DNA of 64,000 nt from NCBI GenBank assembly GCA_949297215.1, contig CASFRV010000004.1:1-64000 (forward strand). Direction: 5' to 3'. Position 1 is the stretch's first letter, and each line of letters opens with the position of its first letter. Source of the stretch: an uncultured Bacteroidales bacterium (GTDB lineage: Bacteria > Bacteroidota > Bacteroidia > Bacteroidales > Bacteroidaceae). Positions 3,769 through 62,174 of this stretch are shown here, piece after piece. Below the pieces are notes generated by a model, which saw only the letters and a program-made list of their open reading frames with translations, was not told the origin of the DNA and ran no database searches. A program made the translations under genes and the position numbers.

Positions 3769-3842
3769 CGCTTCAGGATGGGCTTGAACCAACGACCCCC
3801 TGATTAACAGTCAGGTGCTCTAACCAACTGAGCTACTGAAGC
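3769..3842 (-). tRNA. tRNA-Asn (GTT), copy 2 of a tandem pair
   Basis: On the minus strand the 74 bases fold as a complete cloverleaf. The acceptor arm GCTTCAG pairs with CTGAAGC and is followed by discriminator G. The D arm contains AGCTCAGTTGGTTAGAGC, the anticodon loop CTGTTAA has anticodon GTT, and the T arm contains GGTTCAAGC. No CCA is encoded. It is identical to the copy at 3863-3936, with a repeat period of 94 bases. Confidence 0.97.
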
Positions 3843-3862: not shown

Positions 3863-3936
3863 CGCTTCAGGATGGGCTTGAACCAACGACCCCCTGATTA
3901 ACAGTCAGGTGCTCTAACCAACTGAGCTACTGAAGC
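3863..3936 (-). tRNA. tRNA-Asn (GTT), copy 1 of a tandem pair
   Basis: Same sequence and cloverleaf as the neighbour at 3769-3842, with G as discriminator base. It is the promoter-proximal copy of a two-gene transcript read on the minus strand. Confidence 0.97.
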
Positions 3937-11468: not shown

Positions 11469-11484
11469 AGCCCCGCGCGGGGCT
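11469..11484. terminator. GC-only palindrome after the transporter gene
   Basis: A perfect 16-base palindrome, AGCCCCGCGCGGGGCT, 16 bases after the stop. It has no T tract, so termination is uncertain. A very similar GC palindrome abuts the same end of element B at 34915-34927 and a related one at about 61819-61832, so it may be part of the repeat. Confidence 0.4.
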
Positions 11485-11824
11485 GTGCGCTATATGGCAA
11501 ACCGTTAAAGCGGACGCCCGCGCCGACGCTCATTCCAGCGTTTTTTCCGTGCGTCCATGCGGCGGCCCAACCGATCCATGGGATGTTTCGGCCGAAGCAT
11601 CCCATGGATTTCTGTTTCCAAGGGATGGATTTCGTCATCCAAGGCCTGTTTCCGATGGAAAAATCGCCCCGAAACGTGCCATATAGTGGCGAAATTCGCA
11701 ATTTATAGTATCTTCGTAGCGGGGCATCGCGCAGATAGTCCTCACTATCAAGCGTTTCTGATTTTCGCGTATTTGCGAGCGACGGAGCAGTCGCGCGAAA
11801 ATAATCGATTCTCCGTGTTAAAAA
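11484..11824 (+). repeat. Element B, copy 1 (341 bp)
   Basis: Discrete noncoding repeat. The left end is TGTGCGCTATATGGCAAACC and the right end is CTCCGTGTTAAAAA; both ends recur in three other copies (34572-34914, 46041-46382, 61833-62174). In order inside: CCGTTAAAGCGGAC, a TCCATGCGGC box, several ATCCATGGGAT-type units around CCATGG, TGCCATATAGTGGCG (inverted relative to the left end), then an A/T-richer right half with ATTTTCGCG/CGCGAAAAT arms. The CTATATGGCA at 11490-11499 and TGCCATATAG at 11677-11686 form an inverted repeat. No transposase is encoded. Confidence 0.9.
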
Positions 11825-11904: not shown

Positions 11905-11966
11905 CACCGCCCGGACGGCCCGCCGCGGTGGAAGAATGTCGTGGCGGGGCTGCGCCCCGTGCGGGT

Positions 11967-11988
11967 GAGACGCGATGAATCGCGTCTC
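11967..11988. repeat. GAGACGCG hairpin, copy 3 (inverted)
   Basis: Arms GAGACGCGAT and ATCGCGTCTC around GA. It is inverted relative to copy 2, about 60 bases away, so the two form a larger inverted pair. Confidence 0.85.
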
Positions 11989-12039
11989 TACGCAGCGGAC
12001 ATCCCTTGCGGCAGAATATCACCCAGACCCCGTAGCCAC

Positions 12040-12660
12040 ACCGTGAGGCAGGCGACCCCATAGGGGTCGAACTTTCTATAACCGCGGGTGAGCCATAGGC
12101 GAACCCGCGGACAGAACCCTCCCTGTAATGGGACCCCATGGGGGGCCAACTTCGCATTACCGCGGGTACGCCGCAGGCACACCCGCGGTCAGCGTGGTGC
12201 TGTCACACGCCAAGGCCCCATGCCACACATCCCGGCGCCCGCACGACCGCGGCATAAAGTTCGACCGCTATGGGGTCGGAGTTGTGTGGGGCTCCTGTCC
12301 GCGGGTGCGCTGCGCTTACCCGCGGTTATAGAAAGGCCGACCCCTATGGGGTCGGCAGCCTCGCGGCACTCACTTCACACCGCGCAGGTAAGCCGCGTAG
12401 CTCGCGTCCCCATCATCAGCCCTCCGTCGCACGAGCGGCCCCAAGGGGGCCGAGCTATCAGTAGCCGCGGGTGGAGCGAAGCGGAACCCGCGGAAAGGAA
12501 GCCCATAACGAAGATAGCCTCGAAGAGGCGTCTATGCCAGACGCCGCAGCGGGCATAGCGACCTCTTCGAGGCCGACTTCCTCACCATCCTACCCACCTC
12601 GGGTTCCGCTCCGCTCCACCCGAGGCTACTAATAGGCCGGTCTCTTCGAGGCCGCCAGCC
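12040..12660. repeat. Palindrome cluster A, copy 2
   Basis: Same modules in the same order as 1-540. GACCCC/GGGGTC palindromes lie near 12055, 12133, 12263 and 12340. CCGCGGGT/ACCCGCGG hairpins lie at about 12082-12110, 12160-12190 and 12298-12326, with another at 12465-12493 whose loop is GGAGCGAAGCGGA. The CCTCGGGT/ACCCGAGG variant lies at 12597-12625, and GCCTCTTCGAGGC palindromes near 12520, 12562 and 12643. No protein-like frame. The stretch 11454-12911 holds element B copy 1, this cluster, three GAGACGCG hairpins and a terminator, and no gene. Confidence 0.85.
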
Positions 12661-12704
12661 TCGCGGCTCACTTCCTCCCACCCGCACGGGAAATCCGCCA
12701 CGTA

Positions 12705-12726
12705 GATACGCGAGTCATCGCGTCTC
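12705..12726. repeat. GAGACGCG hairpin, copy 4 (degenerate)
   Basis: Reads GATACGCGAG with ATCGCGTCTC. One arm carries two changes, so pairing is imperfect. It has the same surroundings (CCACGTAGA before, TCACCGCCCGGATGGCCCG after) as copies 1 and 2. Confidence 0.7.
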
Positions 12727-12816
12727 TCACCGCCCGGATGGCCCGGCGTGGGGGAAGAATGCCGGGGCGGGGCTGCGCCCCGCGCGTGCGGCGGTGTGTC
12801 CTCCGCTTCGGGGCAT

Positions 12817-32679: not shown

Positions 32680-34272
32680 TCAGTCGTTTTCAGGTTTGTC
32701 GTCAAAAGGCGCATGGCCGTTGCCCCGGCGGCCATAGCCTCCCTCACGGCGACCGTAGCCCCCCTCGCGGCGGCCGTAGCCCCCCTCGCGGCGGCCGTTG
32801 TCGCCGTCGCGGCGGCCATAACCTCCCTCGCGGCGGGGGGCGTCGTCGTTGCGGCGGCCGTAGCCTCCCTCGCGGCGGGCGGGCCGTCCTCCGTCGCGTG
32901 CGTCGCCGCGGAAGCGGGCACCGCGTCCGCCCTCACCGCGCTGGCCGCGGGCGGAGTTGAAGTTGCGCTCAAACTCGATGTGCTTGCGGCGCAGATAGTC
33001 GGCCAGCTCGTCGTTTTCGCCGGCCTCGTCGTCGGTCTTGCGGTTGAAGTCGCGGTTTTGCTTAAAGCGCTTTTTCTCCGCCATGCGGCGGCGCTCCTCG
33101 GCCGTCTTGATGTCGCCGCCACCGGCCCGGAAGCGGTCCATGGCGCCGTCGAAGAGCTGGTATTTTCTAAACTCGCAGTCGATCGAGCCGTTCACCAAAG
33201 GCACCTTGAAACTGGGGCGCAGGCCCATCTCGTCGAAGAGCTCTTCCTTGCCCGAGATCACCCAGGCATCGTTTCCCGTGAAGGCATGCTTCAGGCGCTC
33301 GCCCAGGGCGCGATACACGGCGTGGAGGTCGGCCGGCGCCAGGCGCTCGCCATAGGGCGGGTTGGTAATCATGATGGCGGGTGCCGCGGGCTGGGCAAAC
33401 TTGCGCACGTCCTGCTGCTGCAAGACGATGCAGTCGGCCACGCCGGCGCTTTTGGCGTTGGCCGTGGCGGCCTCGATGGCCGGCAGGTTCAGGTCGTAGC
33501 CATATATCTTGTGGTCGAAGGGGCGTTCCTGCGAGTCGTCGTTGTAGATGCGGTCGAGCAGGTTGCGGTCGAAGTCCTTCCACCGCTCAAAGCCGAAGCT
33601 CTTGCGAAACACGCCCGGATAAATGTTTCGGGCCATGAGAGCGGCCTCGATGAGGATGGTGCCCGAGCCGCAGAAGGGGTCGACGAGGTCTTTCTGGAAG
33701 TCCCACCGCGAGAGCTTCACGAGAGCGGCCGCCAGCACCTCGTTGATGGGCGCCTCGACGGTGGCCACGCGGTAGCCGCGCAGGTGGAGGCTGTCGCCCG
33801 AGGAGTCGAGCGAGAGCGTGCAGCTGGTTTCGGCCACGTGTATGTTGAGACGGATGTCGGGGTTGGTGATGCAGATGTTGGGGCGCTTGCCTTGGGTCTC
33901 GCGGAAATAGTCGACGATGGCGTCCTTCACCTTATAGGCCACGAACTTGGAGTGGCGGAACTCCTGCGAGTAGACCACGGAGTCGACGGCGAACGAGGTT
34001 TCCAGGTCGAGATAGCGGCTCCAATCGATCGACTTCACGGCCTGATAGACGTCGTCGGCATCTTTCGCCTCGAAGTGCTTGATGGGTTTCAGGATGCGCA
34101 CGGCCGTGCGCAGACAGAAGTTGGCTCTGTACATCATCTCGCGGTCGCCGCTGAACGACACCATGCGGCGGCCAATCTGTATATCGTCGGCACCCAGCTC
34201 CGTCAGCTCTTGCGCCAAGACCTCTTCAAGGCCTTGAAAAGTCTTGGCGATGAGTTCAAATTTTTCTTCCAT
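32680..34272 (-). CDS. THUMP-domain rRNA (guanine-N2) methyltransferase, RlmL-like, with Arg/Gly-repeat tail
   Basis: 530 residues. A THUMP RNA-binding domain (about 45-165) precedes a class I SAM methyltransferase (about 165-395) with DPFCGSGTILIEAALMARNI and the catalytic NPPYGERL motif (near 300), as in the N-terminal half of E. coli RlmL (m2G2445 of 23S rRNA) and YpsC. From about residue 440 the chain becomes a low-complexity tail with five or six copies of RREGGYGRR, rich in Arg, Gly and Asp. This is an RGG-box-like RNA-binding extension, not a standard domain of the family. The peptidase gene follows after four bases. Confidence 0.9.
   Translation of the reverse strand: MEEKFELIAKTFQGLEEVLAQELTELGADDIQIGRRMVSFSGDREMMYRANFCLRTAVRILKPIKHFEAKDADDVYQAVKSIDWSRYLDLETSFAVDSVVYSQEFRHSKFVAYKVKDAIVDYFRETQGKRPNICITNPDIRLNIHVAETSCTLSLDSSGDSLHLRGYRVATVEAPINEVLAAALVKLSRWDFQKDLVDPFCGSGTILIEAALMARNIYPGVFRKSFGFERWKDFDRNLLDRIYNDDSQERPFDHKIYGYDLNLPAIEAATANAKSAGVADCIVLQQQDVRKFAQPAAPAIMITNPPYGERLAPADLHAVYRALGERLKHAFTGNDAWVISGKEELFDEMGLRPSFKVPLVNGSIDCEFRKYQLFDGAMDRFRAGGGDIKTAEERRRMAEKKRFKQNRDFNRKTDDEAGENDELADYLRRKHIEFERNFNSARGQRGEGGRGARFRGDARDGGRPARREGGYGRRNDDAPRREGGYGRRDGDNGRREGGYGRREGGYGRREGGYGRRGNGHAPFDDKPEND
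32727..32880. repeat. In-frame DNA repeat encoding the RREGGYGRR tail
   Basis: Tandem and near-tandem copies of CCCTCGCGGCGGCCGTAGCC (written on the plus strand) occur five to six times. They are multiples of three bases apart and keep the reading frame of the methyltransferase. Copy number could vary by slippage or recombination. Confidence 0.85.
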
Positions 34273-34394: not shown

Positions 34395-34495
34395 AATATT
34401 AATTTCTGAACGATGCGCATCTGGGGACGTAAAACGGCCGCGGGGAACGTCCGGCGGGCGGGTGTGCAGCCATGACGCCGGATGCCCGGGCGGGT

Positions 34496-34517
34496 GAGAC
34501 GCGATGAATCGCGTCTC
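34496..34517. repeat. GAGACGCG hairpin, copy 5
   Basis: Perfect arms GAGACGCGAT and ATCGCGTCTC around GA, 55 bases from element B copy 2. Orientation matches copies 3 and 6. Confidence 0.85.
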
Positions 34518-34571
34518 TACGCGGCGGACGCCCCCTGCTGCGGGGCTGCGGGTGTTTCCGGCGCGGCGCCA

Positions 34572-34914
34572 TTTTTTTAACACGGAGAATGCGGAATTTT
34601 CGCCCGCACGCTCCGTCGCTCACAAATGGGAGAAAATCAGAAACTCCTCATTTCCAACCACATCCGTGCGACGCCTCGCCGCATGGACGCCCGAAAACGC
34701 GATTTTCGCCGCTATATGGCACGTTTCGGGGCTATTTTTCCATTAGAAACATCCCATGGATCGGAATTTCCATGGGATGGATCGGCGATTCCATGGGATG
34801 GAATTCGAAATCCAGGGGATGGATCGACGAATCAGCCGCATGGACGCACGAAAACAACGCTAAAAAGCGGACGGCCATGGCCGTCCGCTTTAACGGTTTG
34901 ACATATAGCGCACA
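34572..34914 (-). repeat. Element B, copy 2 (343 bp, inverted)
   Basis: Right end TTTTTTTAACACGGAG at 34572 and left end ...ATATAGCGCACA at 34914, i.e. inverted relative to copy 1. It carries four CCATGGGATGGA-type units and the ATTTTCGCCGCTATATGGCACG block. A 91-codon frame (34626-34901, plus) spans most of it and has an equal-length counterpart in copy 3. A GC palindrome (34915-34927) abuts the left end as at copy 1. The left end is 24 bases from the 3' end of the phosphoesterase gene. With the hairpin at 34496 it fills the gap 34273-34938. Confidence 0.9.
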
Positions 34915-46040: not shown

Positions 46041-46382
46041 TTTTTTAACACGGAGAATCGATTATTTTCGAGCGCCAGCGCCGACGCTCGCAAATGAGCG
46101 AAAATCAGAAACCGCTGACGTTCAGCCACATCCGTGCGAAGCCCCGCCGCACGGACGCCCCAAAACGCGATTTTCGCCACTATATGGCGCAAATCGACCC
46201 CCATTTTCTCTTGAAAACAGGCCTTGGATACGAAAATCCAAGGGATGGATCGGCCGATCCATGGGATGGAAACAGAAATCCATGGGATGGATCGACGGGG
46301 CAGCCGCATGGACGCACGAAAATAACGCTAAAAGGCGGCGCAACACGCGCGTCCGCATTAACAGAGTGACATATAGCGCACA
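46041..46382 (-). repeat. Element B, copy 3 (342 bp, inverted)
   Basis: Same ends as copy 2 (TTTTTTAACACGGAG at the low coordinate, ATATAGCGCACA at the high one). The interior has three CCATGG-type units and the block ATTTTCGCCACTATATGG. A 91-codon frame (46094-46369, plus) has the same length and boundaries as one in copy 2. On the opposite strand a frame with repeated SIPWI runs through it. The GC palindrome seen beside the left end of the other copies is missing here. Confidence 0.9.
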
Positions 46383-46433
46383 AGGGGTGCGGCCTTCCGA
46401 TGACAACATCGCGTGCTGAAAAGGAATCGCGAG

Positions 46434-46740
46434 GCCTGCGACCCCATAGGGGTCGAACCATCTATAACCGCGGGTGAGCCAAAGGCGAACCCGCGGACAG
46501 TCCTCACCCTACAATGGGACCCCATGGGGGTCCAACTTCCCCTTACCGCGGGTAAGCCGCAGGCATACCCGCGGACAACGCGGAGCAGTCATCCGCCAAG
46601 GCCTAAAACAACACATCCCGGTGCCCGCACGACGCTGTGAGGAAGTTCGACCCCCATGGGGTCGGAGTAGTGTGGGGTTCCTGTCCGCGGGTGCGCTGCG
46701 CTTACCCGCGGTTATAGAGTAGTGCGACCCCCTTGGGACC
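46434..46740. repeat. Palindrome cluster A, copy 3 (short)
   Basis: Contains GACCCC/GGGGTC palindromes near 46440, 46517, 46648 and (decayed) 46728. Three CCGCGGGT/ACCCGCGG hairpins lie at about 46469-46497, 46547-46576 and 46684-46712, in the order of copies 1 and 2. It lacks the second half (the GGAGCGAAGCGGA-loop hairpins and GCCTCTTCGAGGC palindromes) and has no GAGACGCG hairpin. Element B copy 3 and this cluster fill most of 46015-46910. Confidence 0.85.
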
Positions 46741-46851
46741 GTCAGCCACACGTTAAACAGCCGGCTCCCCATCGGCGGGCCCCTCCCCCGTCCCCGCCGC
46801 CCGCAAAGGGCGTTTCTTTCAGCCGCTTGCGGGATGTTCGTGAAAAAAGTA

Positions 46852-53651: not shown

Positions 53652-56600
53652 ATGAAAAAGTTGCATTACCTCTCAGCGTTCTTGCTGTTGGCAGCAGGGG
53701 CCACGAGTTCGTACGCACAGAAGTGGGTCGTAAACGACGGGGACGAGTACCTCACGTCCATCCCTGTTGGAGTTCCGGTTGCCCTCCACTCGGTCACCGG
53801 CAACGCCTACTTATGCGGAACGGGCAACGGCGTGTCCAACATTACGGACAACTGCGCTTTCGTATTCGAAGATGCCGGCAACGGCACCTATCGTCTGAAG
53901 CAATATGAAACAAATCTGTACTTTGGCGACCAGGAATTGGGCGGCACCTCCGACAGTTCCGACACACCTCCCTCGCAGAACCCGAGCGACTTCACGTGGA
54001 TGACGGAAAATCCCGATGAAGCTTTCACATTCTTCGCCAACAACCCCAATCCAGAAGCCAGCGGCGAAGCAGGGGAAGTTGATTATGAAACAGCAAAGGG
54101 GCTGACAAGCGTCACCTACGAGGCTGAAAACATAACGCGCTACTTCATCTTCACGCGTTCCCCGCTGAAGAGCGACAACGTGGCCACATACCTCGGCTAC
54201 TACAGCGCCAAGCCGTTCCTCTCTCCGTGGGTCGACACGAACCTCTGGACCGTCAGCAAGCTGAGCGAGGCCCCCGCCTTCTCGCAGCTGACGACCGTGT
54301 TGTCGGAGCTCTTCCCCAACAACGTCACGGCCGACAACTACCCCGTGGGCACCAACCCCGGCCAGATCTCGCAGGAGCTCTTCAACGAAGCCTCGGCCCT
54401 CGTGACCGAAGCACGCGGCTACACCTCTTCGACTGACGACGCAACCATCCTCGCCATGATCGAGAAGCTGCGCGCCATGAAGGAGCGCCTGAGCACGGAA
54501 TACAACCCCGTTGTGGCCGGCTACTACTACTTCAAGAACTTCCGCTCCGACAACATCGGCGTCTATGCCGCTGCTAACGGTGTGAAGTGGACAGCTTCGT
54601 ACGACTTCCCCGCTGAACCCGAAGTGGCCGACGCTGCTTACTTGTGGGAGCTCATCGAGGTGGACGGCGGCTTCGCCATCCGCAACTACGCCAACGGCGA
54701 GTATGTGAACGACTTCGCAAGCAACTCCACAATCATTCCGTTCACGGATACGCCCGTGGCTCACAAGTTCACCTACCAGCCCGGTAACGAAATGGGCCGT
54801 GGCGATGTGTTCAACATCTCCGCTGCCGATCACGCAAACGCCGCAACCTGGAACGCCGACCCCAACGGCAACATCGTTTACTGGGGCGCCATTGAGGCAT
54901 CGGGCAACAGCTTCACGCTCCACCGCGTGGACGAGAGCGCCCTCGGCGGCTTGGCCGAACTGGTTGAGCAGAACCGTCTGAACGAAAACCTGACGAGCCT
55001 TTACAACGACGCCTTCTCCCTCTATCTGAGCGGCCGCCGCTTCACGAGCGATGCCACGCCCGACGGCGAATACCTCGCTCCCGGCTTGGCCGAAGACGGC
55101 TCGCTGCTGAGCTCCAACGCTCCTGAAACGACCGAAGGCGAAATTGCCAACGCTGTCGACCTTGACTTCGGTACCTACTTCCACTCTGCTTGGAGCAGCG
55201 ATGCTTCTGTCGAAGCCGAGAACACGCCTCACTACATCCAGGCCAACCTGGCAGAGCCCGTTGAGACGGGTGCCATCACGTTGAAGATGACTCAGCGCTG
55301 GAAGAACGCCAACCAGGCCAACAACGCCCCCTCGGTTGTTGAGATCCAGGCTTCGACCGACGGTTCGACCTTTACGACCGTTCCCGGCTACATCAACACC
55401 ACCGTTAACTACGCTTACAGCGCTACCCACAACGAAGAGACGCGCGAAAACGTGACGGCTCTGCTCAGCGTGGACGGTGTTCCCGCCGGCACCCAGGCCA
55501 TCCGTATGATTGTCAAGGACACGCCTTCGCACGGCAAGAACGGCAAGGGCAACGTGTTCTTCTCGCTCTCCGAGTTCCACGTTTACGCTGCTACGTACAA
55601 CACGGCTTCGCCCTACGAGCAGGTACCTGCCGAGATGCGCGCCGAGTTTGAAAAGCAGCTGGCTGCCGCCGAGGCTGAGCTCACCGCCGAGGCTGCTACG
55701 CAGGCCACCATCGACGCTCTGCAAGCTGCCTACAACAACATCCACGACAACATGCCCGAGCCCTCGATTGCCCGCGAAGCTGTTGAGGATGCCCGCACCT
55801 ATCTCGAAACTGCCCAGGAAGGCGACGGTATCGGCTACTTCCGCGCAGGTGGCAAGGATGCCTTCAAGGCTGCCATCGACGAGCAGGAGGCTCTCATCTC
55901 CGACAACATGACGCTCGATCAGGTGAACTCCGTTGTCAGCGCCATCGACGCTGCCACCGCAGCCTTCGATGCTTACCTCATCCTGCCCGAAGAGGGTACG
56001 CTCTACACGGTTCAGGCCGGAACGAGCACGGCTGCTCTCGCCAACCAGTATCTCTACGCCGTCAACGTGAACACGGCTGCCAAGTGGGGTGGCTACGACT
56101 CGACGCCCGACGACGACCAGGATACGAGCGTTGACCCCGCTACCAACTATGCATACCTCTGGTTCGTTGAGAGCGTGGACGGCACCAACGTAACGCTGCG
56201 CAACCTCGGTACGGGCCTCTACGTGGGCAACCAGAACCAGCGCAACAGCGCCGTGCCCGTCACGATTGAGCCCACCACCGTCACGCTGCGCTATGCACGC
56301 ACGGCCGGCCTGCTCAACGTCGTTGTGGGCGATGGCATGTACCTCAACTCGCAGGAAGGCTCGGGCAACTGGGTAGCCTGGAACGAGGCCAACGGCACCG
56401 ACAACAGCGCCGTTAAGTTCACCGAGTTCACGGGCGACCTCACCACCACCTATGGCGCAACGAGCTTCACCCTCCCCGAAGGCAACGAAGTGCAGCTCCT
56501 CTGCATGCCGTACCAGATCTGGAACGGTACCGAGCAGAGCACGTTCTACACCGTGGCCGGTAAGGTTGGCGAAAACCTCTACTTCAGCCCCATCGAAGAC

Positions 56601-57107
56601 GATTATGTTGAGGCAGGCGTGCCCTTCCTCTACGTTCCCGAGGCTACGCACACGGGCAACACCGACAACTTCAACGTAGCCGAGATTGGCGACGCCGTCA
56701 GCACCATCCCGACCTACGTAACCGAAGGCAAGAGCCTGAACGGTCTCTACGGTACGTTCACGAGCGTCACGCTCGGCTCGAGCTGCGGTACGTTCCACGC
56801 CGGCGACTTCTACGTAACCGACGCCAACATGGCCGACTACATCAAGGGCGTAGCTCCCTACCAGGGCTATCTGGGCGCAGGTATTCCTGAGATCGCCGAA
56901 AGCGAAGTGACGGACGACATGTACGTCGTAGCTGGTGGCGGCAACGTAACGGCCATCGAGAACGTAACGATCCAGAAGAACGAGAAAGTTGACGTCTACA
57001 CCACCTCGGGTGTGCTCGTCCGCAAAAACGTTCTCTTCGGTACGGCCACGAACGGCCTGCCCGCCGGCATCTACATCGTTGGCGGCCAGAAAGTGCTCGT
57101 GAAATAA
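53652..57107 (+). CDS. Large secreted protein with F5/8-type (discoidin) and FIVAR-like domains, paralogue 1
   Basis: 1151 residues. Signal peptide about 1-22 (ending SSYAQ). The N-terminal and middle regions hold repeated Trp/Gly beta-rich modules (GVKWTASYDFPAEPEVADAAYLWELIEVDGGFAIRNYANGEYV). A discoidin-like carbohydrate-binding module follows (about 495-650; FGTYFHSAWSS, LKMTQRWKNANQANN APSVVEIQAS, split here). Next is a FIVAR-like helical region (about 665-780; AEAELTAEAATQATIDALQAAYNNI and ALISDNMTLDQVNSVVSAIDAA), then the C-terminal tail VDVYTTSGVLVRKNV ... GIYIVGGQKVLVK. It probably binds or processes host or dietary glycans at the surface, with no catalytic motif seen. Codons end in T more often than in its neighbours, which may mean high expression. 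Its paralogue is next to it. Confidence 0.85.
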   Translation: MKKLHYLSAFLLLAAGATSSYAQKWVVNDGDEYLTSIPVGVPVALHSVTGNAYLCGTGNGVSNITDNCAFVFEDAGNGTYRLKQYETNLYFGDQELGGTSDSSDTPPSQNPSDFTWMTENPDEAFTFFANNPNPEASGEAGEVDYETAKGLTSVTYEAENITRYFIFTRSPLKSDNVATYLGYYSAKPFLSPWVDTNLWTVSKLSEAPAFSQLTTVLSELFPNNVTADNYPVGTNPGQISQELFNEASALVTEARGYTSSTDDATILAMIEKLRAMKERLSTEYNPVVAGYYYFKNFRSDNIGVYAAANGVKWTASYDFPAEPEVADAAYLWELIEVDGGFAIRNYANGEYVNDFASNSTIIPFTDTPVAHKFTYQPGNEMGRGDVFNISAADHANAATWNADPNGNIVYWGAIEASGNSFTLHRVDESALGGLAELVEQNRLNENLTSLYNDAFSLYLSGRRFTSDATPDGEYLAPGLAEDGSLLSSNAPETTEGEIANAVDLDFGTYFHSAWSSDASVEAENTPHYIQANLAEPVETGAITLKMTQRWKNANQANNAPSVVEIQASTDGSTFTTVPGYINTTVNYAYSATHNEETRENVTALLSVDGVPAGTQAIRMIVKDTPSHGKNGKGNVFFSLSEFHVYAATYNTASPYEQVPAEMRAEFEKQLAAAEAELTAEAATQATIDALQAAYNNIHDNMPEPSIAREAVEDARTYLETAQEGDGIGYFRAGGKDAFKAAIDEQEALISDNMTLDQVNSVVSAIDAATAAFDAYLILPEEGTLYTVQAGTSTAALANQYLYAVNVNTAAKWGGYDSTPDDDQDTSVDPATNYAYLWFVESVDGTNVTLRNLGTGLYVGNQNQRNSAVPVTIEPTTVTLRYARTAGLLNVVVGDGMYLNSQEGSGNWVAWNEANGTDNSAVKFTEFTGDLTTTYGATSFTLPEGNEVQLLCMPYQIWNGTEQSTFYTVAGKVGENLYFSPIEDDYVEAGVPFLYVPEATHTGNTDNFNVAEIGDAVSTIPTYVTEGKSLNGLYGTFTSVTLGSSCGTFHAGDFYVTDANMADYIKGVAPYQGYLGAGIPEIAESEVTDDMYVVAGGGNVTAIENVTIQKNEKVDVYTTSGVLVRKNVLFGTATNGLPAGIYIVGGQKVLVK

Positions 57108-57434: not shown

Positions 57435-57474
57435 GAGCGATAAACACTAAGTTTCACACAAAGTCTAAATGCAC

Positions 57475-60400
57475 ATGAAAAAAGTTCACTTATTTCTGTC
57501 GGCATTGGCGCTTTCGCTGATACCGGGAGGAAGCGATCTTTCCGCCCAAGACTACCAGTGGCGGGAAGACAAGCCCGTGAGTACGATCACACCCGGGCAA
57601 CAAGTGGTTCTGCGCAGTGGTCAAGGCACGCAGAGCTTCTTGCAGGGAGGGTCGGTGTCGACTGACGGCAACAACAACAATGCTGTCTACACTTTTGAGG
57701 CAGCCGAACCTCTGGAAGACGGAACGTTGACGTACTACTTGAAGCAAGTCTCTACCGACAAGTACATTGCCAACGGACCCAACAACACTTCTTCAACGCC
57801 GACCTACACGGACGACCTGAACGACGCTTTCCGTTTCACGGCCAAAGCAGCGGTTTACTATACAACAAGCCAGGAGGCCGACCAGAACGACCTCTCCTGC
57901 GCCACCATCACGCCGCTCATCGAAGGTCAGACGGGTTTCATCTTCACGAACGTAAGCTTTTATGAAGGTGAGTCGGTACAGTGGATTTGCCACAACGGCG
58001 GTACGGGTGCCCTCCTGTACATGTACATCGACACGAATCTCTGGTATCTCTACGAAACGGAGAAGGCATCGGGCTACACGCTGTTGCGCAACACCATTAC
58101 GTCGCTCTTCCCCGCCGGCGTAACGGAGGACAACTGGCCCGTGGGCGACGACCCCGGCCACATCAGCGCCGACGTGTTCCAGTCGTTGGTGGACGCTTAC
58201 AGCGAGGCCAACCAGATGACGTCGTCGACGCCCGCCGAGGAATGCAACGCCATGGTTGAACGCCTCAAGCAGGTGTATGAAGAAGCCATGGCAGCCATGA
58301 AGCCCGTCGTGGCAGGCTACTACTACATGACGAACCATCGCGACGCAACGATGGGTGTACATGCAGGTACGAACGCCAACGGCGTGGAAGGCGTGCGCTG
58401 GACCTCGGGCTACGACTTCCCCGAAACGCCCGACATCGACGACGCCGCCTACATCTGGCAGCTCGAAGAGGCCGACGGCGGCTTCACCATCAAGAACTTC
58501 AGCAACGGACGCTACGTTGCCGACCGCAACGACATCTCGGTAATGTTGGAGTTCACCGACGAGCCCGTGGTTCACACCATCGTGCCCCAGACGGCCAACA
58601 ACAAGGGTGCCCGCTTCAACATCCAGGCAGCCGACCATCCCAACATCAACACGTGGAACGCCGACCCGCAGGGGAACATCGTATATTGGGCCGGCAACAA
58701 CGGTCAGGCCGACGGCAACTGCTTCACGCTCTACTCCATCGACGCCGCAGCCTTGGAAGGCATGACCGAAACGGTGCAGCAGAACAACCGCAACACGCAG
58801 CTCACCAAGCTCGTGGAAAACGCCAAGGCCAGCTTGAAGAACGCCCGCGGCTACGCCACCGAAGCTGAAAAGAACAGCGACTACACCGTGCCCGGCCTGG
58901 CCGACGCTGTCGAGTTCCTCTCCACCAACGCTCAGGAGCCCACCGAAGGCGCCATGGCCAACATCGTCGATGCCGACCTGAGCACCTACTTCCACTCCAT
59001 TTGGAGCGCAGGCTGGGCCGAAGGCCACGACGAGAGCGAGGGCAACGCACCCCACTACCTGCAAGTGACGCTGCCGCAGCCCGTTTCGGGCGTAGCCCTG
59101 AAAATGACGAAGCGCTGGAAGAACGCCAACCAGGCCGACAACGCCCCGACGGTTGTCGAAATCCAGGCCTCGACCGACGGCGGCACGAGCTTTGCCACCG
59201 TCCCCGGCTACGAAGAAGCCACCATCAACTACCAGTATCCCGCCACGGTGGCCGAGGAAACGCGCCAGAACGTCACGGGCATCCTCTACGTTGAAGGCCT
59301 GCCCGAGGGCACGAACGCCCTGCGCATGGTTGTGCTCCACACCGTGAGCGACGGCGCCAACAAGATATCGGGTGCCGTGTTCTTCTCGCTCTCCGAGTTC
59401 CGCGTTTACGAGGCAGCCTACGATCCCGAGCTCTCCATCCTTGAAAAGGTGCCGGCCGAGATACGTGAAGCCTTGAACAACGCCATCGCCAAGGCCGAAG
59501 CCGAGCTGGCCGAAGAGAAAGCCACCGACGCCACCATCGCCGAACTGAGCGAGGCTTACGACGCATTCTTGGAGAACCTGCCCGACCCGCAGCGTGCCAA
59601 GGACGCCCTCGAGGCAGCCCGCTCGCTGCTCGAAACAGCCGTTGAGGGCGAAGGCCTCGGCTACTTCACCGCCGGCAGCAAAGCCACGTTCGAAGCAGCC
59701 ATCAACGCCCAGGCCGGCCTCATCAAGGAAGCCATGACGCTCGACGAAGTGGAAAGCGTGACGGCAGCCATCGACGCCGCCACCGAGGAGTTCCTCAACG
59801 CCCTCATCACGCCCGAAGTCAACACGTTCTATGTCATCCGCAGCGCCACGTCGTCCACCGGCAACAACTACATGCTCTATGCCCAGAGCAACAGCGACGC
59901 CCAGAACCCCGTACGCGCCGGAGGCTACAACAGCGAGACGCAGGAAAGCACGGTCAACCCGAGCCAGAACCTCAACTACCTGTGGTACGTCGAGAGCAAG
60001 GAGGGCCGCAACATCACGCTGCGTAACGCCGGTACGGGCCTCTACATGGGCCATCAGGACGGCCTGAGCCAGCCCGTCTACTTCACCACCGAACCCACGC
60101 AGCTGCCCATCCAGTATGCCCGCACCGAGGGCTGCTTCAACATCGTCGTGGGCGCCGATGCCTCGGGTGCAAACATGTATTGCAACCTGCAAGGCGGCAC
60201 GGGCCCGAACATGGTGGGCTGGACGTCGGCCAATGGTAACGACAACAGCGCCCTCAAGTTCGAGGCTACGTCGTTCGACTTCTACGGCATGAACGAACAT
60301 GCCATCGACGGCAACGATGCCCAGATCATGTGCCTGCCCTACTCGATCTACGGCTACAACGACAATGCTGCCTTCTACGACATCGCCGGCTCCAGCACCG

Positions 60401-60930
60401 ACGGCACGAAGCTCTACCTGCAACCCACGACCGACGAAATCCTCGAACCGGGCCGCCCGTTCGTCTACATCCCCAACGAGGGTGTTGAGCTCGACGGCTC
60501 CGACTACTTCTACGTAGTTGAAACGGGCGAGGACGGCACGACCATCCCGCAGCTCACGCTGACGGGCCTGAGCCACAACGGCCTGCAAGGCACCATCACG
60601 GGCGACACGATTGCCAACGGCCTGGGTGTCGTATCGAACGGCAAGCTGTATGTCACGACGGGCAACTACCGCAACAACGTAGGCGCCAACAGCGGCTGGG
60701 TAACGCCCGAGTATCCGAAAGACTTCGAGCCGGCAGAAGACCTGCCCTACTTCGAAATCAACGGTGAAATCAACGCCATCGACAACGTGACCCTCGTGAA
60801 GAACGAACGCGTCAACGTCTACACCGTAACGGGCGTAGCCGTACGCAAGGGCGTTCTGCGCAGCAATGCCACCGACGGCCTGCCTAAGGGCGTCTACATC
60901 GTGGACGGACAAAAGGTACTGAAGAAATAA
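57475..60930 (+). CDS. Large secreted protein with discoidin and FIVAR-like domains, paralogue 2
   Basis: 1151 residues from the ATG at 57475, preferred to the ATG at 57469 because MKKVHLFLSALALSL starts the signal peptide directly. Same domain order as the gene at 53652, with closely matching blocks: VGDDPGHISADVFQSLVDAYSEA, SGYDFPETPDIDDAAYIWQLEEADGGFTIKNF, STYFHSIWSAGW, LKMTKRWKNANQADNAPTVVEIQ, AKAEAELAEEKATDATIAELSEAYDAF. The end is VNVYTVTGVAVRKGVL ... GVYIVDGQKVLKK. Each paralogue has its own promoter and terminator, so they can be regulated separately. No catalytic motif was found. Ligand is unknown; the discoidin module suggests glycan or glycoprotein binding. Confidence 0.85.
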   Translation: MKKVHLFLSALALSLIPGGSDLSAQDYQWREDKPVSTITPGQQVVLRSGQGTQSFLQGGSVSTDGNNNNAVYTFEAAEPLEDGTLTYYLKQVSTDKYIANGPNNTSSTPTYTDDLNDAFRFTAKAAVYYTTSQEADQNDLSCATITPLIEGQTGFIFTNVSFYEGESVQWICHNGGTGALLYMYIDTNLWYLYETEKASGYTLLRNTITSLFPAGVTEDNWPVGDDPGHISADVFQSLVDAYSEANQMTSSTPAEECNAMVERLKQVYEEAMAAMKPVVAGYYYMTNHRDATMGVHAGTNANGVEGVRWTSGYDFPETPDIDDAAYIWQLEEADGGFTIKNFSNGRYVADRNDISVMLEFTDEPVVHTIVPQTANNKGARFNIQAADHPNINTWNADPQGNIVYWAGNNGQADGNCFTLYSIDAAALEGMTETVQQNNRNTQLTKLVENAKASLKNARGYATEAEKNSDYTVPGLADAVEFLSTNAQEPTEGAMANIVDADLSTYFHSIWSAGWAEGHDESEGNAPHYLQVTLPQPVSGVALKMTKRWKNANQADNAPTVVEIQASTDGGTSFATVPGYEEATINYQYPATVAEETRQNVTGILYVEGLPEGTNALRMVVLHTVSDGANKISGAVFFSLSEFRVYEAAYDPELSILEKVPAEIREALNNAIAKAEAELAEEKATDATIAELSEAYDAFLENLPDPQRAKDALEAARSLLETAVEGEGLGYFTAGSKATFEAAINAQAGLIKEAMTLDEVESVTAAIDAATEEFLNALITPEVNTFYVIRSATSSTGNNYMLYAQSNSDAQNPVRAGGYNSETQESTVNPSQNLNYLWYVESKEGRNITLRNAGTGLYMGHQDGLSQPVYFTTEPTQLPIQYARTEGCFNIVVGADASGANMYCNLQGGTGPNMVGWTSANGNDNSALKFEATSFDFYGMNEHAIDGNDAQIMCLPYSIYGYNDNAAFYDIAGSSTDGTKLYLQPTTDEILEPGRPFVYIPNEGVELDGSDYFYVVETGEDGTTIPQLTLTGLSHNGLQGTITGDTIANGLGVVSNGKLYVTTGNYRNNVGANSGWVTPEYPKDFEPAEDLPYFEINGEINAIDNVTLVKNERVNVYTVTGVAVRKGVLRSNATDGLPKGVYIVDGQKVLKK

Positions 60931-61012: not shown

Positions 61013-61099
61013 GTATGGCCGTGGGGCAGCGCGGGTGAGTGGCGGACTTCCCGTGCGGGTGGGGGCGTGACGCTTACCACGCGGCTCACGGTGTGCGGG

Positions 61100-61705
61100 C
61101 TGCGTGGCTGCCGACCCCATAGGGGTCGCACTATTGATAACCGCGGGTAAGCGAAGCGCACCCGCGGACAGGAACTTCCACACAACTCCGACCCCAGGGG
61201 GGGTCGCACTTCACTTCCGCACCGTGCGGGCTCAGATTGGCATTGCTTGGGGCCTTGGCGGATGGTTTGTACAGCGCCCGCCGCGGGTGCGCCTACGGCT
61301 TACCCGCGGCGACTGACGTTGGACCCCTATGGGGTCCTCATATCTATATGGCTCCTTTCCGCGGGTTCGCCTATGGCTCACCCGCGGTTATCAATGGTTC
61401 GACCCCTATGGGGTCGTCTGCCTCGCGGTGTGGCTTCGCGCTGTGGCGGACATTCTGCCGCACGGGGGATGCTGTGCAGCGAGGCGTGGCGGCCTCGAAG
61501 AGGCCGAGCTATGAGTAGCCTCGGGTGGAGCGAAGCGGAACCCGAGGTGAGCGGTCAGAGGAGATGGCGGCCTCGAAGAGGTCGCTATGCCCGCGGCGGC
61601 GTATGGCATAAACGCCTCTTCGAGGCTCTTCGCAGAGGAGGAGCCCGTTCCGCGGGTTCCGCTTCGCTCCACCCGCGGTTACTGATAGCTCGGCCCCCTT
61701 GGGGC
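61100..61705. repeat. Palindrome cluster A, copy 4 (rearranged)
   Basis: Modules as in copies 1 and 2, but partly inverted. GACCCC/GGGGTC palindromes lie near 61115, 61190, 61322 and 61399. CCGCGGGT/ACCCGCGG hairpins lie at about 61138-61167, 61279-61309 and 61358-61387. The GGAGCGAAGCGGA-loop hairpin has CCTCGGGT/ACCCGAGG arms at 61519-61547 and CCGCGGGT/ACCCGCGG arms at 61650-61678. GCCTCTTCGAGGC-type palindromes lie near 61492, 61571 and 61614. No gene occurs between 60931 and 62308; that gap holds this cluster, a GAGACGCG hairpin and element B copy 4. Confidence 0.85.
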
Positions 61706-61754
61706 CGCTCGTGCTGCGCCCCCACAATCCCATCTGTGGGCCATCCGGGCGGTG

Positions 61755-61778
61755 AGAGACGCGATGAATCGCGTCTCT
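61755..61778. repeat. GAGACGCG hairpin, copy 6
   Basis: Perfect 11-bp arms AGAGACGCGAT and ATCGCGTCTCT around GA, between cluster A copy 4 and element B copy 4. Confidence 0.85.
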
Positions 61779-61832
61779 ACGTGGCGGACTTCCCCTGCGG
61801 GTGGGTGGCTATGACGGGCCGCCGCGCGCGGC

Positions 61833-62174
61833 TGTGCGCTATTTGGCAAACCGTTAATGCGGACACCCAGCTCCGCCCGCATTCCAGCGTTGGAAAGGCG
61901 GCGCGATGGGGTGCGCGGGGCGATCCATCCCATGGATGCGCCGACCCATCCCTTGGATCGGCCGATCCATCCCTTGGATTTTCGCTTCCATGGGCACTTT
62001 CGGGGTGAAAATTGGGGCCGATTTGTGCCATATAGTGGCGAAAATGGCGTTTTTCGGCGTCCTTGCGGCGGGACTTCGCAGGGATATGGCTGAAACACAA
62101 GGGTTTCCATTTTTCGCTTATTTGCGAGCGTCGGCGCGGGCGCTCGCAAATAAGCGATTCTCCGTGTTAAAAAA
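61833..62174 (+). repeat. Element B, copy 4 (342 bp)
   Basis: Left end TGTGCGCTATTTGGC and right end CTCCGTGTTAAAAAA, same orientation as copy 1. It holds four ATCCATCCC(A/T)TGGAT units. Near the right end is a perfect 16-bp stem, CGCTTATTTGCGAGCG (62115-62130) with CGCTCGCAAATAAGCG (62141-62156); the matching place in other copies has shorter or decayed arms. The right end is 69 bases before the gyrB -7 element. Confidence 0.9.

Follow-up and report, generated by a model that had tools for sequence, protein, structure and literature searches.

Element B, a non-coding sequence of about 341 bp dispersed through two genomes of the genus Alloprevotella, appears, on a narrow balance of probability, to be a DNA-level nucleoprotein platform that organises or marks the chromosome. 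This reading is drawn from the geometry of the element, which is kept amid sequence change, from the preservation of its spacing and of its chromosomal places, and from a large zone of the chromosome that is devoid of full copies. The analysis suggests that B is neither a gene nor an ordinary jumping element but a building block with which the chromosome is folded or marked. A first-pass annotation of this DNA had offered three readings, a MITE-like element moved in trans, a structured RNA and a chromosome-organising site. The last of these is the best fit in view of the minimum spacing between copies, the copy-free zone and the helical phasing, and we infer it on those grounds; the MITE in its standard form and the structured RNA are both disfavoured.

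Copies, distribution and anatomy of element B

The window, as the term is used here, is the whole stretch of 64,000 nucleotides that was analysed, C4:1-64000 of a 2.40-Mb draft genome in 33 contigs (G000, genus Alloprevotella). The four copies of element B that had been reported in it were recovered at the same places (Table 1), with the conserved ends TGTGCGCTAT and GTGTTAAAAA in all four and with flanks that do not align. Of the lengths originally given, 341, 343, 342 and 342 bp, the first stands; measured to the shared right end all four copies are 341 bp, the larger figures having arisen because one or two flank A's were included. The fixed, sharp ends that had been described hold for strong conservation, which breaks off abruptly there, and a weaker consensus extends beyond them by about 8 bp on the left and about 20 bp on the right. 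Three copies had also been placed 24-31 bases past the 3' end of a gene, and the distances in the window are indeed 30, 24 and 27 bp (for copy 3 it is the right end of the element that faces the gene). Such proximity is not a general rule, however, because all four gene orientations occur among the 69 of 97 copies for which both neighbours could be called with a simple ORF score (17 '>B>', 23 '<B<', 16 '<B>' and 13 '>B<').

Table 1. Positions of the copies of element B in the window, and of the parts of copy 1
Feature	Position	Strand	Description
Element B copy 1	11484-11824	+	341 bp, measured to shared right end
Element B copy 2	34574-34914	-	341 bp, measured to shared right end
Element B copy 3	46042-46382	-	341 bp, measured to shared right end
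Element B copy 4	61833-62173	+	341 bp, measured to shared right end
Left end, copy 1	11484-11515	+	TGTGCGCTATATGKCA-N4-GTTAAWGCGGAC, element positions 1-32
21-bp unit array, copy 1	11572-11640	+	type ATCCATCCCATGGAT, partly in flipped GGG form
Internal GCCATATAGTGGCGAAA motif, copy 1	11678-11694	+	inverted relative to left-end CGCTATATGGC
Right module, copy 1	11752-11824	+	imperfect palindrome CGCnTATTTnCG...CGnAAATAnnCGATT, then CTCCGTGTTAAAAA

A DNA search with element B matched 2 of 101 genomes, G000 itself and G015, the draft genome of a sister species in the same genus. An exact-pattern scan of named species genomes, which may omit records very near the window's own, returned five stretches, all in the MAG uncultured Alloprevotella sp. 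BRZ_LB bin49, and two 500-base checks match this genome to G015; viral contigs gave no exact matches to the element. Near-full matches to copy 3 within G000 had BLAST E-values from 2.7e-105 to 1.6e-50 (best 40 of 100 candidates) and are therefore far above chance. A sequence-only profile, R1, made from 25 copies over 341 columns without a gap, found whole and partial matches at E<=1e-3, at least 128 in G000 (best 150 of 874 candidates) and at least 138 in G015 (best 150 of 884). Near-full positions, as used in the spacing analysis, number 53 in G000 and 58 in G015, or about 55 copies per genome. Among 58 genomes of the genus R1 was strong in these two only, with one weak match of 20 bits in each of G038 and G011. 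A literature search by titles and the starts of abstracts, mostly outside the subscription journals, found no paper on element B.

The left end (element positions 1-32), an imperfect dyad, is nearly invariant among 25 aligned copies, and the other invariant or nearly invariant blocks are GTTAAWGCGGAC, GCCATATAGTGGCGAAA, TTTTCGC..ATTTGCG, CGAAAATAATCGATT and GTGTTAAAA; between the blocks lie alternative alleles of equal length that are swapped among copies. Length steps of 21 bp in other copies fall in two arrays with unrelated units, one of the ATCCATCCCATGGAT type at about positions 90-150, which is the array of Table 1, and one upstream of it with the unit TTTTCGTGCGTCCATGCGGC near position 80. 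The right module is the part of B that recurs in the families of G011 and G038/G001, which otherwise differ from it. A protein-coding repeat was rejected, since all six frames are interrupted by stops in 13 of 30 copies; another 15 of these copies are open in one minus frame only, and no period of 3 was found in the conservation of B.

The absence of obvious terminal inverted repeats (TIRs), noted in the first-pass annotation, was confirmed, as the first 20 bases agree with the reverse complement of the end at only 5 positions and the only subterminal pair is TTAAwGCGGA/TCCGTGTTAA. Target-site duplications (TSDs) were sought in 94 copies, where no k of 2-9 was clearly above shuffled flanks (at k=3, 11 were counted, where shuffling gave a mean of 6.7 and at most 11). 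The lack of both features, together with the orthologous sites in two species, argues against a MITE-like element of the standard form.

Other repeats lie close to the copies. A second composite repeat, at 1-553, 12043-12786, 46429-46801 and 61093-61832 of the window, consists of arrays of the palindromes GACCCCATAGGGGTC, CGGCCTCGAAGAGGCCG and ACCCGCGG...CCGCGGGT; it adjoins three of the four copies in the window and occurs in both orientations, direct and inverted. A short dispersed repeat, GTGAGACGCGATGAATCGCGTCTCTACGYRGCGGAC, is found near three copies (11956-12012, 34485-34541 and 61745-61801), and a related end, GTCCGCCACGTAGAGACGCG, in several right flanks. Several G015 copies are directly followed by a hairpin repeat, TTAGGAGGGGCGGCATTCCTGCCGCCCCTCCTAA, of which the right flanks in G000 (60 nt) hold only pieces such as TTAGGAGGG.

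Length, helical phase and chromosomal spacing

The unit had been proposed to be copied, or maintained, as a whole, and its concerted evolution and the quantisation of its length in steps of 21 bp strongly support this. Among 97 copies of 150 bits or more, 91 measure 341+21n bp (69 of 341 bp, 21 of 362 bp and 1 of 383 bp), and the six off-class copies are of 324, 340, 342 (three copies) and 361 bp. MAFFT alignment of the element in 37 ortholog-position pairs from G000 and G015 yielded 2910 substitutions and 23 indels, 17 of them of 21 or 42 bp, leaving 6 non-21n indels or one per 485 substitutions. The flanks (34 alignments of 300-341 bp, retained if more than 70% identical) yielded 1595 substitutions and 51 indels, 3 of them of 21 bp, so that the 48 non-21n indels amount to one per 33 substitutions. 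With a permissive aligner the contrast between element and flank is small (164 indels and 2528 substitutions in the elements versus 198 and 1731 in 37 flank alignments), and this count was set aside because compensating gaps had been opened even between copies of equal length.

The length of 341 bp corresponds to about 32.5 helical turns, and the layout of B follows the helix in that AT-rich positions recur every 10.5 bp. The spectrum of AT bases in the consensus peaks at 10.5 bp, with a power at 10-11 bp that is reached by 1 of 3000 dinucleotide shuffles; for AT runs the figure is 22 of 3000. The variable columns alone share the 10.5-bp phase that is set by the conserved columns (p 0.0006-0.0024), and the information content of the element peaks at 22 bp, about two turns. 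The control is weaker on genomic windows than on shuffles, as 41 of 2168 genomic 341-bp windows, some of them holding copies, reach the AT-run power of the consensus. AT-rich positions every 10.5 bp are also the mark of phased A-tract curved DNA and of nucleosome- or gyrase-type wrapping sequences. What sets B apart from these is that many dispersed bacterial copies hold the phase over 341 bp, and that the phase is found again in two other families whose sequences are largely different.

The copies also keep a minimum distance from one another. The closest neighbours are 6104 bp apart in G000 and 6082 bp apart in G015, and none of 42 intervals in the former and none of 56 in the latter is shorter than 6 kb, where random placement gave means of 11.9 and 16.5. 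For the two genomes, which are not independent, 0 of 98 intervals compares with about 28 expected, and zero was not reached in either in 10000 runs of a placement model that ignores gene boundaries. The test covers the listed matches, with the weakest R1 matches outside the list; it took in degenerate matches (65 positions in G000 and 73 in G015) and counted overlapping opposite-strand matches once. Three matches of 27-33 bits that were left out (C12:21121 and C18:5997 in G000, C4:59203 in G015) lie more than 10 kb from their neighbours, and some intervals go unseen because ten G000 contigs end less than 1 kb from a copy. Selection against deletion between direct repeats is insufficient to explain the spacing, because the minimum distance is equal, 6.1-6.4 kb, for direct, convergent and divergent neighbours (62 intervals).

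Full copies are absent from 916 of 2400 kb in G000 and from 857 of 2250 kb in G015, with probabilities of about 1e-11 and 1e-12 under uniform placement for a zone whose bounds were set after seeing the data. This zone of about 0.9 Mb makes up over a third of the genome, and the copies cover roughly 60% of the chromosome. No copy is listed on contigs C3, C5 and C15 of G000, and the 689-kb C1 has a single one, at 28.7 kb. The contigs of G015 without copies are C1, C5, C10 and C12; a full copy stands at the start of its C3, which at 82 kb (C3:81926) also bears a weak, partial match, so that weak partial matches do occur inside the free zone. The copy-free contigs of the two genomes correspond where the sampled stretches overlap.

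It is plausible that the copy-free zone includes the terminus. The evidence comes from a change of GC skew along C1 of G000, which, as estimated from sampled 20-kb stretches of the drafts, is mostly positive at 0-520 kb (one stretch being slightly negative) and slightly negative at 590-689 kb. GC content is 0.575 in the free zone (25 stretches) versus 0.619 elsewhere (49 stretches; p=5e-6), and absolute GC skew does not differ significantly between the zones (p=0.12). An attempt to place ori and ter by setting the G000 contigs on the complete genome G004 found an order too scrambled for the purpose.

Orthologous places, concerted evolution and sister families

Copies of element B occupy orthologous places in G000 and G015 and have persisted there while diverging by about 23%, with few indels that are not of 21n. 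The 37 ortholog-position pairs were hand-picked; some rest on one flank, and two are only 56-61% identical. No clean empty site was seen in these pairs, for which many of the G015 stretches were chosen around copies. Fourteen of the 51 G000 copies are unpaired, among them window copy 2, whose locus is orthologous to G015 C18:28407-32227 at 96% over a 3801-bp query, with the copy inside.

Paralogs are generally closer than orthologs: for 32 of the 37 pairs, the ortholog was more distant than the closest of 50 G000 paralogs, and in only 10 was it the best of 46 G015 copies. Furthermore, the 362-bp form accounts for 20 of 51 copies in G000 and 1 of 46 in G015. The closeness of paralogs and the near confinement of the longer form to G000 show concerted evolution, and in our reading copies stay put for long periods while exchanging sequence by recombination or gene conversion. 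Several breakpoints of gene order between the two genomes fall on copies (G015 C2:91642/97803/105533 versus G000 C2:155693/161895/169476, and G015 C7 versus G000 C10/C13).

The weak R1 matches in G011 and G038 proved to fall in other dispersed families. The G011 family has at least 56 matches to its locus and the G038 family at least 79, mostly partial in both, with about six and about five near-full, respectively (best 40 candidates in each case). The right module of both families aligns with B without a gap through CGCnTATTTnCG...CGnAAATAnnCGATT. A 73-nt model of the right module, R2, which included one sequence from each of the two families, had 83 matches in G000, 80 in G015, 22 in G011 and 9 in G038, some copies being scored on both strands owing to the palindrome. 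G001, which lay outside the model, had 5 matches, the best at 3.6e-9; five further genomes gave only E-values of 0.005-0.009, and 48 of 58 gave none. Strong matches to the module are thus confined to 5 of the 58 Alloprevotella genomes, so that either the function is not universal or other versions of the element went unrecognised.

The B profile aligned to the sister families only in part (positions 238-339 and 157-329), and the right module and, in G011, a GTTAA(W)GCG motif are the only likenesses to B that were seen by eye. A left end in G038 that resembles that of B (TGTACGCTATA) was dropped, as it lies outside the family alignment and in one copy only. Between conserved end motifs, six copies in G011 span 341-344 bp. 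The AT spectrum of these copies has its peak at exactly 10.5 bp, with five of the six at or above 99.8% of shuffles and one not above its shuffles, and the best self-match lag is 21, followed by 42, with an unrelated unit, TTAGTTTCAACTnACGCCC. For G038, all five measurable copies have 331-332 bp between two flanking repeats (a count that leaves out the G001 locus), the mean spectrum again peaks at 10.5 bp, and the top lag is 21; 10.5 bp is the individual top in three of six G038/G001 sequences, two being near-identical across G038/G001. The end points of both families were set by motif rather than by empty sites. Two further lineages of the genus carry families that combine largely different sequence with a B-like design of about 330-344 bp, 10.5-bp phase and 21-bp units, the palindromic right module being common to all.

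Proposed role and competing explanations

In the mechanism that we propose, conserved putative protein-binding motifs would be held in constant helical register for about 32.5 turns, which would allow a putative multimeric DNA-binding or DNA-wrapping protein to engage one face of the helix. A putative nucleoid protein would wrap or bridge the copies, and the chromosome would most likely be organised or marked as a result, each copy serving as a domain boundary, a bridging or wrapping point, or a site for the segregation or division machinery. PF02195 ParB and PF01797 Y1 transposase were considered as partners, and the presence of neither tracks that of element B.

A broader proposal, which we advance only tentatively as a whole, is that B may represent a new class of chromosome-architecture element, in which geometry (about 330-344 bp, a 10.5-bp motif phase, 21-bp modules and a 6-kb exclusion over the non-terminus chromosome) stays constant while the sequence is replaced between species, and to which a putative lineage-specific nucleoid protein would bind and with which it would co-evolve. 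If this is true, selection can act on the helical geometry of long dispersed DNA rather than on its sequence, and the Bacteroidota gain a concrete chromosome-organising candidate. We know of no nucleoid-occlusion or macrodomain site described in the Bacteroidota, and a search of titles and the starts of abstracts found nothing on point. The 6-kb minimum distance and the zone free of full copies are quantitative rules that can be tested by Hi-C, ChIP and marker frequency.

The chief rival of the platform reading, though itself unlikely, is a passive one: B would be an ancient non-autonomous repeat of the MITE, BIME or BrickBuilt kind, once mobilised in trans under target immunity and by now immobile, gene-converted and of no benefit to the cell. 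B is intergenic, dispersed, multicopy and concerted and has no gene of its own, and in being short, non-coding and without an internal transposase it agrees with the definition of a MITE. Target immunity, as in Mu, Tn7 and Tn3, would also give rise to a minimum distance like that seen. Matches to the Y1 transposase family (PF01797) are present in the carriers G000, G015 and G038, but among the eight genomes checked they also occur in all three without strong family matches (G004, G037 and G053) and were not found in the carriers G011 and G001, both incomplete drafts; the first 20 kb of G000 C21, where the better Y1 match lies, holds no copy of B. The lack of TIRs and of TSDs clearly above shuffled flanks, and a region of about 0.9 Mb without a full copy, also speak against an old repeat, and persistence at orthologous places at such divergence with few non-21n indels is unlike that of neutral relics. 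Even as an old repeat, an element with concerted evolution at fixed sites and a helix-turn-quantised length would be unusual.

Repeats of this type are known in the Bacteroidales. The BrickBuilt MITE of Porphyromonas gingivalis has 23-nt tandem units with a leader and a tail and IS-matching TIRs, and is present in 19 copies, 4 with both TIRs intact, with TSDs in some and with units gained or lost between strains (PMC4596501). BrickBuilt and B are alike in being intergenic, multicopy Bacteroidales elements with no gene, in having a non-repetitive leader and tail, and in the variable number of roughly two-turn units, 23 nt versus 21 (PMC4596501). Unlike BrickBuilt, B has 21-bp units of other sequence, neither TIR nor TSD, about 55 mostly intact copies, lengths of 341+21n bp, a minimum distance between copies and a zone without full ones. 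B lacks both the TIRs and TSDs of a MITE and the TIR-bearing ends of BrickBuilt. The REP/BIME sequences of E. coli are, like B, intergenic palindromic dispersed repeats, with proposed gyrase or IHF binding and a role in supercoiling; a BIME is a short mosaic that varies in length and is linked to RAYT, whereas B is a single long unit whose helical length is fixed.

The boldest specific function that the platform reading could take, and an improbable one, is that of nucleoid-occlusion or segregation-timing sites, at which a bound putative protein would restrain division wherever copies lie, with the copy-free terminus releasing it. The presence of about 55 copies with a free and possibly terminal zone is in keeping with this role, as is the location of the dnaA and ParB-family genes of G015 on copy-bearing contigs (C21 and C2, respectively). 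Noc (NBS) and SlmA (SBS) sites likewise occur in tens of chromosomal copies, about 70 NBS and 24-52 SBS, under-represented in Ter, with a 14-bp NBS consensus (PMC4726725). Both kinds of site are short palindromes to which known proteins bind and have no fixed frame of 341 bp, and B is a long multi-motif element. By analogy, B would resemble the NBS and SBS in distribution and BIME or gyrase-type sites in working. A single PF02195 ParB-family match was found in each of 9 of 10 genomes checked and none in the G000 draft, with no Noc-like second ParB seen; members of the genus without recognisable copies must divide too, and that the free zone is the terminus is itself something we infer.

Less probable again is a site-specific or preferred recombination site, a crossover point for inversions and cassette exchange. 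The breakpoints that fall on copies, the swapping of equal-length allele blocks and the dyad at the left end could all be read in this way, but ordinary RecA recombination between repeats accounts for the breakpoints, no convincing dif-like site was found in the sampled sequence, and the 341-bp phased frame far exceeds the recombination core sites known to us. A relation of the left end (GTGCGC...GTTAAA) to dif/Xer sites was also considered and given up as a resemblance and no more, a generic dif scan of the sampled sequence being unconvincing.

A multi-copy structured non-coding RNA is very improbable: the RNAalifold energy has a z of about -7 versus column shuffles on both strands, and the right-module palindrome of the G011 and G038 families has different complementary stems, but alifold covariation is near zero, the top covarying column pairs among 85 non-redundant copies are local and mostly non-Watson-Crick allele blocks, the stem tested in B pairs in 0.39 of cells in register and in 0.63 two bases off, compensatory changes were not found in B and have partial support only between species in the right module, all gene orientations occur, and Rfam at gathering threshold has no match on the element and only three tRNAs in the whole window.

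Some further repeats were noted in the window and the genus. Tandem tRNA genes at 3769-3842 and 3863-3936, on the minus strand, lie inside an identical 81-nt direct repeat. At 32705-32923, also on the minus strand, an RlmL-type rRNA methyltransferase gene (Pfam) has tandem 21-nt coding repeats at its 3' end, which by eye read as a Gly/Arg-rich tail. The adjacent ORFs at 53652-57107 and 57469-60930, of 1151 and 1153 aa, are paralogs with repeated DNA blocks in common at 73-89% identity, and the second of them has no Pfam match. G004 holds many other dispersed repeats (e.g. L119 14384-14536), including one of about 150 bp with the ends GAAAGTGTATCAAAA/TTTTGATACACTTTC and MITE-like TIRs, as well as GAAGTTATCGAAGTTAACG islands.
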